Translations under genes and position numbers: made by a program
DNA from: Candidatus Gastranaerophilales bacterium
GTDB lineage: Bacteria > Cyanobacteriota > Vampirovibrionia > Gastranaerophilales > Gastranaerophilaceae
DNA length: 42,764 bases
NCBI GenBank assembly: GCA_944322945.1
Contig: CALUQN010000023.1
Location: forward strand, 1-42,764
Direction: 5' to 3'
The notes under the pieces: model-generated
Seen by the model: only the letters and a program-made list of their open reading frames with translations
Told to the model about the DNA's origin: nothing
Database searches by the model: none
Shown: piece by piece, positions 31,202-35,693 of the stretch
Numbering within the stretch: the stretch's first letter is position 1
How the letters are laid out: every line of letters begins with the position of its first letter

Positions 31202-31834
31202 TTAAATCTGCGGCAAACATAATTTTTGATATTCACAAAACCTGCAAGCGTCAGGGTTCTGCGAAAATTCAACCGTGTTCATTTTATCCAATGTTTCCGC
31301 AAGCAGGTTTTCATATTCGTCCTGCCGCGTTTTAGAGAATTCTATTATTTTATTTTCGTTATTTTTCAAATCAATATAGACAAATTTTATGCAGGTTGTG
31401 TTTAGAATTTTTGATGCGCAGTAGAGATAAATCATTGTCTGCCAGTCAAACTCGGGATTTTGCGGAATTGAGCCGGTTTTGTAATCCAGAATGTAGTAGC
31501 TGTTTTCATCCTGCATAAGGGCGTCCAGTCTGCCGCCTACCCAGTAATTTTTTATTTTAGCGGAGAGTGTGTATTCTGATTTTACATATTGCTTGTTAAA
31601 AAATTCATTAGTTTTTAGCGTTTGCCAAATCTTTGCTTCATCGGATGCAAGCGCTTTTTCCAGTTTGGTAATATCAGCGCCTTTAAGATAATAGTTCGCA
31701 AGAGCGTGAATTTTTTTGCCGCGTTCAAAGTTGGAGGCTTTTTGCGGCATCATAATATTTTTTATGTATTTGTATTCAAACTTACGCGGGCATTCCGTAA
31801 AAGTCTTAATCATATATGGCGAAAAATCACTCAT
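31202..31834 (-). CDS. Cas4/AddB-like Fe-S PD-(D/E)XK nuclease
   Basis: This 210-residue stand-alone nuclease has four cysteines, Cys15 (ECPRKFEYKY) plus Cys197, Cys200 and Cys206 (CRFCEYQKLC), in the positions that bind a [4Fe-4S] cluster in Cas4 and the AddB C-terminal domain. The catalytic core has a conserved His (KIHALANYYL), GGRLDAL (Asp104) and ILDYKTG (Asp117, Lys119), followed by the QTMIYLY motif of RecB-family nucleases. Its start overlaps the helicase gene by 8 bp, so the two are coupled. I infer that it supplies the nuclease of an AddAB-like end-resection complex. A CRISPR role is unlikely without cas genes. Confidence 0.82.
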   Translation of the reverse strand: MSDFSPYMIKTFTECPRKFEYKYIKNIMMPQKASNFERGKKIHALANYYLKGADITKLEKALASDEAKIWQTLKTNEFFNKQYVKSEYTLSAKIKNYWVGGRLDALMQDENSYYILDYKTGSIPQNPEFDWQTMIYLYCASKILNTTCIKFVYIDLKNNENKIIEFSKTRQDEYENLLAETLDKMNTVEFSQNPDACRFCEYQKLCLPQI

Positions 31835-34800
31835 GCTCCACCTCTTTCAAAATATCCGTAAATATTATGCTTGGCTCCTGCTGCACAACTTTGTCAAAAG
31901 ATTTTGTCTTGGTGCTGACTGTAAAGAACAATTTTCTTTTCGCGCGTGTAATGGCAACGTACAAAAGCCGCAAATTTTCGGAAATAAGCTCCTGTTTTAG
32001 GTCAAATTCAGTTTTTGGTTTGTAGTTCGGGTTAAGCCTGCGGATGTTTTCCATAAAATCCGAGGATTTGAGTTTGATTTGACTAAAGTCAAGTGTCAGG
32101 CTCTTTTCTGTCATTTCAGGGATAAAGACATAATCAAATTCATCGCCTTTGGATTTATGAAGAGTCATAATCTGGACTTTGCCTTCCAGAAATTCTCTGT
32201 TGGATTCGTCTTCTTCCGAGAAAAATTTGAACCCGCTCAATGACGGTTTCTTCGCTAATTCGCCAAGCCGCTCGACAATATAATTGAGGCTTTTATTTGT
32301 GGTGCTTATTCTTTTGATTAAGGTTGAAATCAGGTAGACATTGGATTTTTCAATTTCGCTTTTGAAATAGTAACGTCCGATTTTAATTGCAAGCTCCTCT
32401 GCGGTTAGAGCAGGAAACGAGAGCCAGTAGGTCAAATCCCAGTAAAATTGTTCAAGGTGTCGATTGTCTAAGTCGTCACAATTCATTTGCACAAACGGGG
32501 TCTCAAGTTTTCTGATATCAGCGCCGAGCCGCGGCTTGTAAAAGCCGAGTTCTGCGAGGATTTCATAATTGTCTGCTATCACATTGTTGTCAAACGGCGA
32601 CAAAATCATCTGCATTACCGCAAAAATCCCTTTGAAAATGGATTTTTGTTCAAGGCATTCGCTTCTGGTGATACTTTTTAAGCCGCTGTCGTTTACGTAG
32701 TTTTGCCACTGTGCAACCTGATAGTTGTTTCTCAAAAGAATTCCGACTGTCGCTTTAGGCTCTTTTTCAAATGTGTTTTTTATGACTTTCAGGATGTAAT
32801 TTCTTTCTTCAAAGTAATTTTCAAATACTTTTCCGCATACAGCATTTTTTTGAACGGGATTTTTGCCTTCAACAGGCTGCATAAATATTTTGAAGAATGC
32901 GTTTTTGGTTTCTTCACTTGTCTCCGCCCATCTGACAAGAGAATTTGCAAGCTGCCATACATCCTGTGTACATCTTTGCGAACAGTTCATGCTGACGTTT
33001 TGGCTTTCCGCTATAAATTTTCTGAACCCTTCGACATCGGCGTTAGAAAATGTCGTTGTGATTGCCTGGTTAATATCTCCGCAGCGGATTAGGTTTTTAT
33101 ATTTGGCGCTCAAAAGGTTAATCAGACGCTGCTGGATAGAGGAGGAATCCTGCGCTTCGTCTTCTATTATGTAATGGCAGATATCCTGATAGTGTTTGAG
33201 AATATCATCATTTTCTTCAAGAAGTTTCACCGATGAAATCAGCATGTCGTCGTAGTCAATGAGGTTGGACTCTTTCATAATCCGGTTATATTCGTTGAAA
33301 AATTCAAAGAATTTTTTGAGTTTTGCGTCGGAAATATTTGGCGGCTGAACCCCTTGTGAGATTTTAAACACCGAGCAGGCGCGGTCAAATTCTTCGGTTT
33401 CATTTTTTTTGAGTTTTAATTTTGTTGAAATTTCTCTGACGATGCGTGTCCTTTGGGAATCGTCACAGATTTCAAAATCCGAGCTCAACCCGAGGCGCTC
33501 AAAGTTTCCGTTTTCTTTCAAAATTCTTAGTGCAAGTCCGTGTATTGTGCTGATATTCGGCAATTGTGAGGAGTTTTGCCGTATATTTTTAATTCTTTCT
33601 CTAAAATTTCTGGCAGCGGATTCCATATAGGTCATTACAAAAATATTTTCCGGATTAACGCCTCTATCGAGAAGTTTTACAATCAGTGCAAGCAGAATAG
33701 TTGTTTTGCCGGCGCCGGGGACTGCTGATATTGCCATTTTCCCTGATTGATATTCAAGTACCGGCTTTTGATCGTCGCGCGGGGTTATTCTGAATTTTTT
33801 TTCTTTCGGAGTTTCTTCTATAATATTTACTTCTGCAATATAATTTTCAATTCCGCCTAGATTTTCGACACCGTTGCCGTCAAAGAGGCTTGAGAAAGTA
33901 TAAATATGTTCATCCGCACAGAGGGTGAGTTTCCTTAAAATTCGTGCTGTTTTATCTTTTCCGAGTTCTAAATTATCATCAATAGTAAACTCGTCTTTGT
34001 GCCAGTCTTTTTGAAATACCCACGCATTATACAATGGTCCTGTGTCGCTTTTTATCCAGTCAGAATTCGATGTATCGAGCCAGAATTGATATTTTGTGCG
34101 GATTTGATTATCAATAATTTTCTGCGGGGTTCCGATTACAAGGTCGCGCGGGGCTATTTCCAATGTAGAATACGGATTTTCCGCGATTATTGAATTTTCA
34201 ATCTGGGTCAAAATTTCTTGTTTCCTTTTGTCAAATTCATCTTTATAAATATTTTCAAAGTCCTGCAATTGTTTTATAAAAAAGTTAAATTTTTTCAATT
34301 CTTCGGGATTAGTGGTGCTAAAATCCGCAAGCTCAGTAAATATTTCATAAACCTGTTCTGATAATTTTAAATTTCCGGCTTCAAGTTTAGTCTTTAATTT
34401 CAGGAGTTTGGAATATTTTTCATTGTGTTCCGGAATTGAAAAGTTATAGCCAATAAGATTTTTATTTGCGGTAAAATTTTCAAGAATTTCTTTGCAATAT
34501 TTAACAGGAATACCGAGGAAATCAGAGAGAACAACACGTAAATCAAATTCCGTCAAATCGTTTCTGAATTCTGATGTGAGCTTTAAAATGTTCAAAGAAG
34601 CAAGCACAAGGCGGTTTTGAATGAGTTTTTCGCTTCCTGAAAGATAGACTATATTCAAATTTTTCAAGTTTTCAGAAAGCGTAAATTTCAGCATATCGTC
34701 AATAACCGGAGTAACGACGGCAATTTCTGACGGCAAAATATTTTTATCCAGCAGTTCTTTAATTTTTTTGACGGTTAAATCAATCATGCCGGCGCGCTTT

Positions 34801-35693
34801 GACGGTGAAAATACCGAAAAATGACCGAGCGGAGTTTTTTTGTCTTCTTTAACGTTTGTGAATAAAATTTCCGCGTCCTCAGCGAGATTAGATACCGTTT
34901 CAATTTGTACAACAGGCTGCTTGAACAAGTCTTCAAACCCGAAAACGGAAGTTCTGTCCGCACTCAAATACCCTGACCTGCTTGAACCTTTTGTATCAAA
35001 TGCAATAAAAACATCTTTCAGCTGAGGTGCAATATGTCTTACAAAATCCATTGCAATCGGTGTGAGTTCATCCGCATCATCTATGAATAAATATTCAATA
35101 TTTTTAAAATAACCGGTATTTTGATATATGTATTTGAAAACAAGGGTTTGTCTCAGATAATCAAAATCTCTCATTTGCAGAGTTTTAGAGAGAAATTTTT
35201 TCAGTGCTGCTCTGGCGTCGTCCGCAAAACTCTCTTTCAAAATCCCTGCGCGCCACTCAACTTCATCGTCATTAAGATTGTTCTGAACTATCAGTGAATA
35301 CCTCCTGAATAGCTGATGCAGAAGAGATTTTTTTGAATTGTAGCCTCGGAATTTTATTGATTTTATAATGTCTTTCATTATAAATTGAGACACTTCAAGC
35401 CCTGCAAGATTCGGAATAATTTCCGGGTCTTGATATGGATTTACATTCTCCAAAACAGCCCAGTTGTCAATAACAGAATTGTATACCAGTGAAAAAAATG
35501 AATGAATTTGAAGTTTTTCGTGTGCGTCAATTTTCAGCAATTTCTGAACACATTGTGTAAAGTTTTCTTTCAAAGATGAATTCTGTACAAGCACAAGAAT
35601 TTTTGAAGAATTAATATTTTTATTCAAAAGTTTTGCGTAATTTTCAACAAGTAAATCAGTCTTTTTTGAGGCTATAGAGCCGTTTATCAGCAA
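31827..35693 (-). CDS. UvrD/AddA-like helicase fused to an inactive AddB-like N-terminal half
   Basis: This 1288-residue protein has two helicase-like halves. The first (about 1-600) begins with a degenerate P-loop (NGSIASKKTDLL, 4-15) and has a motif II relic LFIDDADEL near 203-210, recalling the AddB N-terminus. The second is an active superfamily 1A helicase: Walker A AVPGAGKTT near 655, motif Ia VMTYMESAARNFRERI, Walker B IIEDEAQDSS near 843, RCGDINQAI, motif V TLHKSKGDEFDYVF near 1174 and motif VI YVAITRAKRKLFF. The start is TTG, with AGGAG about 10 nt before it; no in-frame ATG is nearby. With the following nuclease it probably resects double-strand breaks for RecA. Confidence 0.82.
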   Translation of the reverse strand: MLINGSIASKKTDLLVENYAKLLNKNINSSKILVLVQNSSLKENFTQCVQKLLKIDAHEKLQIHSFFSLVYNSVIDNWAVLENVNPYQDPEIIPNLAGLEVSQFIMKDIIKSIKFRGYNSKKSLLHQLFRRYSLIVQNNLNDDEVEWRAGILKESFADDARAALKKFLSKTLQMRDFDYLRQTLVFKYIYQNTGYFKNIEYLFIDDADELTPIAMDFVRHIAPQLKDVFIAFDTKGSSRSGYLSADRTSVFGFEDLFKQPVVQIETVSNLAEDAEILFTNVKEDKKTPLGHFSVFSPSKRAGMIDLTVKKIKELLDKNILPSEIAVVTPVIDDMLKFTLSENLKNLNIVYLSGSEKLIQNRLVLASLNILKLTSEFRNDLTEFDLRVVLSDFLGIPVKYCKEILENFTANKNLIGYNFSIPEHNEKYSKLLKLKTKLEAGNLKLSEQVYEIFTELADFSTTNPEELKKFNFFIKQLQDFENIYKDEFDKRKQEILTQIENSIIAENPYSTLEIAPRDLVIGTPQKIIDNQIRTKYQFWLDTSNSDWIKSDTGPLYNAWVFQKDWHKDEFTIDDNLELGKDKTARILRKLTLCADEHIYTFSSLFDGNGVENLGGIENYIAEVNIIEETPKEKKFRITPRDDQKPVLEYQSGKMAISAVPGAGKTTILLALIVKLLDRGVNPENIFVMTYMESAARNFRERIKNIRQNSSQLPNISTIHGLALRILKENGNFERLGLSSDFEICDDSQRTRIVREISTKLKLKKNETEEFDRACSVFKISQGVQPPNISDAKLKKFFEFFNEYNRIMKESNLIDYDDMLISSVKLLEENDDILKHYQDICHYIIEDEAQDSSSIQQRLINLLSAKYKNLIRCGDINQAITTTFSNADVEGFRKFIAESQNVSMNCSQRCTQDVWQLANSLVRWAETSEETKNAFFKIFMQPVEGKNPVQKNAVCGKVFENYFEERNYILKVIKNTFEKEPKATVGILLRNNYQVAQWQNYVNDSGLKSITRSECLEQKSIFKGIFAVMQMILSPFDNNVIADNYEILAELGFYKPRLGADIRKLETPFVQMNCDDLDNRHLEQFYWDLTYWLSFPALTAEELAIKIGRYYFKSEIEKSNVYLISTLIKRISTTNKSLNYIVERLGELAKKPSLSGFKFFSEEDESNREFLEGKVQIMTLHKSKGDEFDYVFIPEMTEKSLTLDFSQIKLKSSDFMENIRRLNPNYKPKTEFDLKQELISENLRLLYVAITRAKRKLFFTVSTKTKSFDKVVQQEPSIIFTDILKEVEHE

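Follow-up and report, generated by a model that had tools for sequence, protein, structure and literature searches.

The window analyzed here is a 42,764-nucleotide stretch of DNA from a Candidatus Gastranaerophilales bacterium (phylum Cyanobacteriota, class Vampirovibrionia; assembly GCA_944322945.1, contig CALUQN010000023.1), in which two minus-strand genes encode a large helicase and a small nuclease, the end of the former and the start of the latter sharing 8 bases (gtggagcATGAGTGA). The helicase is a single chain in which a dead helicase half (N-half) is joined ahead of a live helicase half (C-half), and the genes around it are gltX, the nuclease gene, and uvrC. An AAGGAG ribosome-binding site lies upstream of its TTG start codon, and homologs of the protein start at the same residue, in several cases with ATG. 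The overlapping pair is kept in dozens of relatives, indicating that it is real rather than a product of chance. The positions of the individual features are listed in Table 1.

Table 1. Positions in the window of the two genes, their domains, and their conserved motifs.
Feature	Position	Strand	Remarks
Fused helicase gene (N-half and C-half)	31827..35693	(-)	1288 aa, TTG start
N-half, degenerate SF1A helicase (UvrD/AddB-like) without a motor	33798..35690	(-)	aa 2-632; based on profiles, fold, and motifs
N-half Walker A position, GSIASKKT, degenerate in the window protein	35658..35681	(-)	
N-half motif II position, DDADE; departs from canonical DExQD	35067..35081	(-)	
C-half, UvrD/PcrA-type helicase, complete motif set	31854..33788	(-)	aa 636-1280
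C-half Walker A, GAGKT; G, K, and T invariant	33702..33716	(-)	
C-half motif II, EDEAQD, invariant	33147..33164	(-)	
C-half motif VI, YVAITRA, arginine invariant	31941..31961	(-)	
RecB/Cas4-family Fe-S nuclease, stand-alone, 210 aa	31202..31834	(-)	overlaps the helicase gene by 8 bases
Nuclease catalytic residues D104 ... D117-x-K119, invariant	31478..31525	(-)	
Three cluster cysteines, C197-C200-C206	31217..31246	(-)	fourth, C15, at 31790-31792

Pfam analysis of the C-half detected a UvrD-helicase domain at residues 641-894 (2e-51) followed by UvrD_C to residue 1260, and all of the SF1A motifs (GAGKT, EDEAQD, GDxNQ, HKxKGxEF, and YVxxTRA) were kept across 24 diverse sequences. The chain ends ~36 residues past motif VI, and Pfam detected no PDDEXK or other nuclease domain in the 1288-residue protein, confirming a preliminary description of this locus that had seen no second nuclease at the helicase C terminus. 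That description had also called the second half AddA/UvrD-like, of which the UvrD part fits better than the AddA part. In profile comparisons, the C-half was nearer to PcrA/UvrD than to AddA; the fused helicase scored 93.8 of 707.65 bits against the NCBIfam AddA model, far under the cut-off, and did not match the NCBIfam AddB model. In a helicase-domain tree (a quick method, with SH-aLRT as the only support measure), fused and separate C-type helicases grouped together (99%) to the exclusion of PcrA, AddA, and UvrD-Cas4. All fusions formed a single clade within this C clade (96%), and N and C became fused only once.

For the N-half, no Pfam family exceeded its cut-off ahead of residue 640 of the window protein; distant homologs of this half passed the UvrD-helicase cut-off over residues 1-250 (1.5e-8 to 5e-9). 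A low-confidence structural model of the N-half, built on only eight close sequences (pLDDT 61, pTM 0.38), matched UvrD, PcrA, AddB, RecB, and AdnA over the whole length (Foldseek E 1e-11 to 1e-7), with a VIA Z of 17.8 for UvrD and 13.1 for AddB, so that within the limits of this model the first half is not unrelated to AddB. Moreover, a profile of the stand-alone cyanobacterial relatives described below ranked AddB first (98.6%, 7e-16) in an alignment of 600 columns spanning the whole AddB helicase region. Both the fold match and the stand-alone profile alignment indicate that the N-half has the inactive SF1A helicase fold typical of AddB. By sequence, however, the window N-half is as near to UvrD-type helicases as to AddB, the pooled set of N sequences is about equally near to C-halves, UvrD-Cas4, PcrA, and AddB in profile comparisons, and no N-half matched the NCBIfam AddB or AddA family models over their curated cut-offs. 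The term AddB-like, as previously applied to this half, fits the architecture, while common descent with AddB is unproven.

The motifs of the N-half argue that it is not a motor. The motif III glutamine, motif V, and the motif VI arginine are lost or degenerate in every N protein seen, including those with an intact Walker A, and with these catalytic residues gone the N-half is a dead helicase. Together with the intact motifs of the C-half, this bears out the earlier proposal of an inactive half fused ahead of an active helicase. The N-half Walker A reads GKT (GSGKT-type) in the majority of stand-alone cyanobacterial forms, as it does in the fusions of families f3, f4, f6, and f12, and is degraded in the window's own family. 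This loss from the dead half in one family amounts to a natural experiment on the role of ATP binding there.

The small protein encoded by the second gene is a Cas4-like member of PDDEXK_1 (Pfam, 2.5e-23). Among 13 diverse sequences, residues H43, E87, D104, D117, K119, Q132, and Y136 were invariant and C15, C197, C200, and C206 nearly so; the H, D, D-x-K, Q-x3-Y, and four cysteines of RecB/Cas4-type Fe-S PD-(D/E)XK nucleases are thus all present. The earlier view of the Fe-S nuclease as a separate, overlapping gene is upheld. A search of the PDB with the single sequence gave nothing useful, and a search with a profile returned ACE1 and AdnB. In the structural model (pLDDT 78.5), the nearest fold was that of ACE1, followed by the AdnA nuclease and Cas4; the match to ACE1 had a Foldseek value of 9.9e-8, with 17-19% identity in that alignment, and a profile value of 5.7e-8. 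ACE1 (PDB 9iab, 9iac), the nearest solved fold, belongs to the Argonaute-associated Cas4-family nucleases of cyanobacteria; no Argonaute link of the window nuclease was seen. In a nuclease tree with weak deep forks, the nucleases of the fused lineage and of cyanobacteria fell on one side, away from those of AddB and UvrD-Cas4. Assignment as the Cas4 of a CRISPR system was rejected, in that TIGR00372 was barely passed (66.1 of 65), yet the gene travels with the helicase.

Elsewhere in the same genome, which is 98.6% complete, neither AddB (at 1e-5) nor RecC was found, and the four SF1A helicases are the fusion, PcrA, a PHP-UvrD protein, and a UvrD-Cas4 fusion, with no AddA among them; no conventional AddAB or RecBCD was therefore detected. 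The only two PDDEXK_1 proteins are the window nuclease and UvrD-Cas4. The latter, a 1015-residue UvrD with a C-terminal Fe-S PDDEXK domain encoded on another contig (C9; L009:4598-7645, minus strand), means that the window system is not the sole helicase-nuclease in the cell. The PHP-UvrD protein (970 residues; contig C17, L010:4130-7042, plus strand) consists of a PHP-like N-terminal part fused to a UvrD helicase.

Within the class, the fusion was present in 204 of 289 genomes, among them 190 of the 193 in families f1 to f4, and also in part of f6, f11, and f12; it is near-core in an order and nearly always single copy. The f1 genomes without it are G136, G223, and G225, all of which encode a UvrD-Cas4 protein. 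The nuclease gene lies directly downstream and overlaps in 36 of 36 close f1 loci examined (62-89% identity, some of them duplicates), and it also directly follows the fusion, usually with an overlap, in f3, f6, and f12. At the locus itself, no nuclease gene adjoins the fusion in L051, L053 (g20), L060 (f2), L061, L062 (f4), L081, or L082 (f11). Families f5 and f10 are without the fusion and have complete addB-addA pairs instead. Across the genomes of the class, which were the scope of the AddAB search, further AddB matches included weak ones in G212 and G245 and two in f7. A weak AddB match in G278 was traced to the UvrD-Cas4 protein of that genome; its gene (L122:6108-9188, minus strand) lies on the strand opposite to the fusion gene, with <1 kb separating it from the end of the latter.

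Across the phylum, the N profile gave a match in 307 of 386 genomes. Oxygenic cyanobacteria have N as a stand-alone protein of ~650-770 residues, with no name in either Pfam or NCBIfam; their genomes also encode the two other parts as individual proteins, namely a C-type helicase (~770-820 residues) that differs from PcrA and a nuclease of ~260 residues. Among 19 N-bearing genomes outside the class, C was detected in 18 and the nuclease in 18. The three parts are mostly unlinked genes in most oxygenic cyanobacteria; in two deep branches (G297 and G315) they form an overlapping N-C-nuclease operon, and in G311 the C and nuclease genes are adjacent. The occurrence of fused, operon, and separate states, together with the single C clade, constitutes the gene-fusion (Rosetta-stone) signature of proteins acting together, and the window system represents, in fused form, a system that extends across Cyanobacteriota. 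The fusion in the gut lineage in turn shows which unlinked cyanobacterial genes belong together, pointing to three candidate genes, including the orphan N family of ~700 residues, that are testable in model cyanobacteria.

The distribution of these parts is complementary to that of RecBCD and AddAB. Of the 386 genomes, 62 have RecC, and 57 of these belong to f38, a small-genome family that, judging from size and gene content, should be marine Synechococcus and Prochlorococcus, in which recBCD has been reported (PMC5101192). N is absent from all 57 of the RecC-bearing f38 genomes, and indeed no f38 genome has it; in the 19 of them that were tested, C and the nuclease were absent as well. N and RecC occur together in only 5 of 386 genomes, in f15 and f29. 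Similarly, all seven AddB-bearing f5/f10 genomes tested were without C and the nuclease, their sole nuclease matches being the domain inside AddB. Fisher tests for complementarity were extreme, but they count related genomes as independent, and the pattern reflects few independent events, with one loss in f38 and one or two in f5/f10. The absence of the three parts where RecBCD or AddAB is present implies that they may be the phylum's machine for processing broken DNA. Family f9, G339 (f36), and the g26 genomes apparently have neither the N system nor RecBCD (f9 and G339 had no N and no RecC, and those checked had no C), implying that the system is dispensable. With AddAB searched for within the class, f9 and G339 would seem to be without any classical helicase-nuclease for DNA ends.

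Membership in AddAB, RecBCD, AdnAB, UvrD-Cas4, and Gabija was rejected in each case on the features tested. Like AddAB of B. subtilis, the window system has an inactive SF1A half, an active SF1A half, and an Fe-S RecB-type nuclease, and within the class the two are complementary in distribution. In contrast with AddAB, its helicase halves are in one chain and its nuclease is a separate protein, whereas AddB carries a C-terminal Fe-S nuclease in the same chain; moreover, the AddA motor has its own C-terminal nuclease, while no second nuclease is present here. Since the C-half lies outside the AddA clade, the N-half is not specifically AddB, and the NCBIfam cut-offs were missed, the idea that this is AddAB with its domains re-partitioned did not hold up. 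AdnAB of mycobacteria also has two UvrD-type halves, and the AdnA nuclease is among the nearest solved folds of the window nuclease, but AdnA and AdnB each have their own nuclease. As for RecBCD, the RecC subunit is not present in the genome, the N-half has no match to the RecC profile (2%), and a relationship between RecC and the N-half was rejected (probability of 0.5-2% in the profile comparisons). The UvrD-Cas4 fusion family, described along with operons of UvrD plus Cas4-like genes in Clostridiales (PMC5704561), shares a UvrD helicase and a Cas4-like Fe-S nuclease, but has no inactive half, a fused nuclease, and a distinct helicase clade. With Gabija, the window shares only GajB-type helicase similarity, and the neighboring genes are not GajA (ATPase-TOPRIM). 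No description of the three-part system was found in the literature searched, and the scattering of its parts over three unlinked genes would explain this lack of recognition; S. elongatus is said, without detail, to encode AddAB (PMC10269773).

Based on the data presented above, we estimate at roughly 60% the probability that the window system is a double-strand-end processing helicase-nuclease, AddAB-like in its working, that acts in place of AddAB or RecBCD with one motor and one nuclease. Given that the window N-half is without even a Walker A, one motor plus one nuclease is its most likely make-up. By analogy with AddAB, the C-half would translocate 3'-5' and unwind the DNA, pulling the 3'-ended strand, and the dead N-half would receive and guide the same strand, probably reading along it for a regulatory sequence in the way that Chi is recognized by the inactive helicase half of AddB (PMC4824097). 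The Fe-S nuclease from the overlapping gene would dock on the pair and cut the unwound strand, and RecA would then take up the tail resulting from this resection. In oxygenic cyanobacteria, the three separate proteins should assemble into the same complex. From the sequence comparisons, we read the phylum-wide helicase-nuclease as working like AddAB without being orthologous to it, in which case it would illustrate how a machine of the AddAB type could operate while its nuclease remains a free subunit. We also lean, by a little, toward the broader view that a further bacterial lineage of end-processing helicase-nucleases, as yet without a name and composed of a dead SF1A helicase, a UvrD-type motor, and a free Fe-S nuclease, replaces RecBCD/AddAB in most of Cyanobacteriota, as three unlinked genes in the oxygenic members and as the fusion plus nuclease in their gut and environmental sister class.

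It is also conceivable, although we consider it unlikely, that the system is mainly a barrier or defense device that degrades incoming plasmid, phage, and transforming DNA in the manner of UvrD-Cas4 fusions or Gabija. The GajB and Cas4 profiles do match by homology, and in S. elongatus both transformation and RSF1010 maintenance rise on loss of a cas4-like gene, uvrD (a pcrA paralog), and a PD-(D/E)XK gene (PMC10653904, a transposon data set; PMC7125226). The uvrD, cas4, and Synpcc7942_0992 genes of that organism may be counterparts of the C and nuclease proteins. The gain in transformation fits the degradation of incoming DNA, and says nothing on repair. However, a single-copy gene that is near-core in an order is not what would be expected of such a device, the window locus is not a defense island, having gltX and uvrC as neighbors, and the system is missing from genomes with RecBCD or AddAB. 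Degradation of foreign DNA is also a property of AddAB and RecBCD, so that these data do not separate barrier and repair roles.

The proximity of the C-half to PcrA/UvrD, as well as the lineages in which the adjacent nuclease is missing or cysteine-less, would also suit a UvrD-type accessory helicase for repair or replication forks, with a nuclease that is co-transcribed but independent and an N-half that is a mere scaffold. We regard this as distinctly unlikely, given that the three genes are jointly absent in f38 and f5/f10, that they occur in operon and fusion states, and that PcrA is present too, as a separate gene. Finally, the intact GKT of the majority of stand-alone cyanobacterial N proteins, shared by the f3, f4, f6, and f12 fusions, could signify a two-motor machine, in which case the N-half would be active or ATP-switched in most of the phylum and operation with a single motor would have come late, in the window's family alone. 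The loss or degeneration of motifs III, V, and VI in all N proteins, and of Walker A as well in the window's, makes this very improbable. Binding of ATP by the N-half without hydrolysis is possible.

Variants of the locus were also observed. In five f1 loci, L052, L054, L055, L056, and L057 (genera g27, g18, g24, g17, and g22), the nuclease beside the fusion is without the cluster cysteines but keeps the D and D-x-K residues; judging from these sequences, the Fe-S cluster was possibly lost in one branch. In genus g14 (G157, G167, G179, G206, G218, G260, and G262), the fusion gene of several genomes contains one in-frame stop inside the matched stretch.
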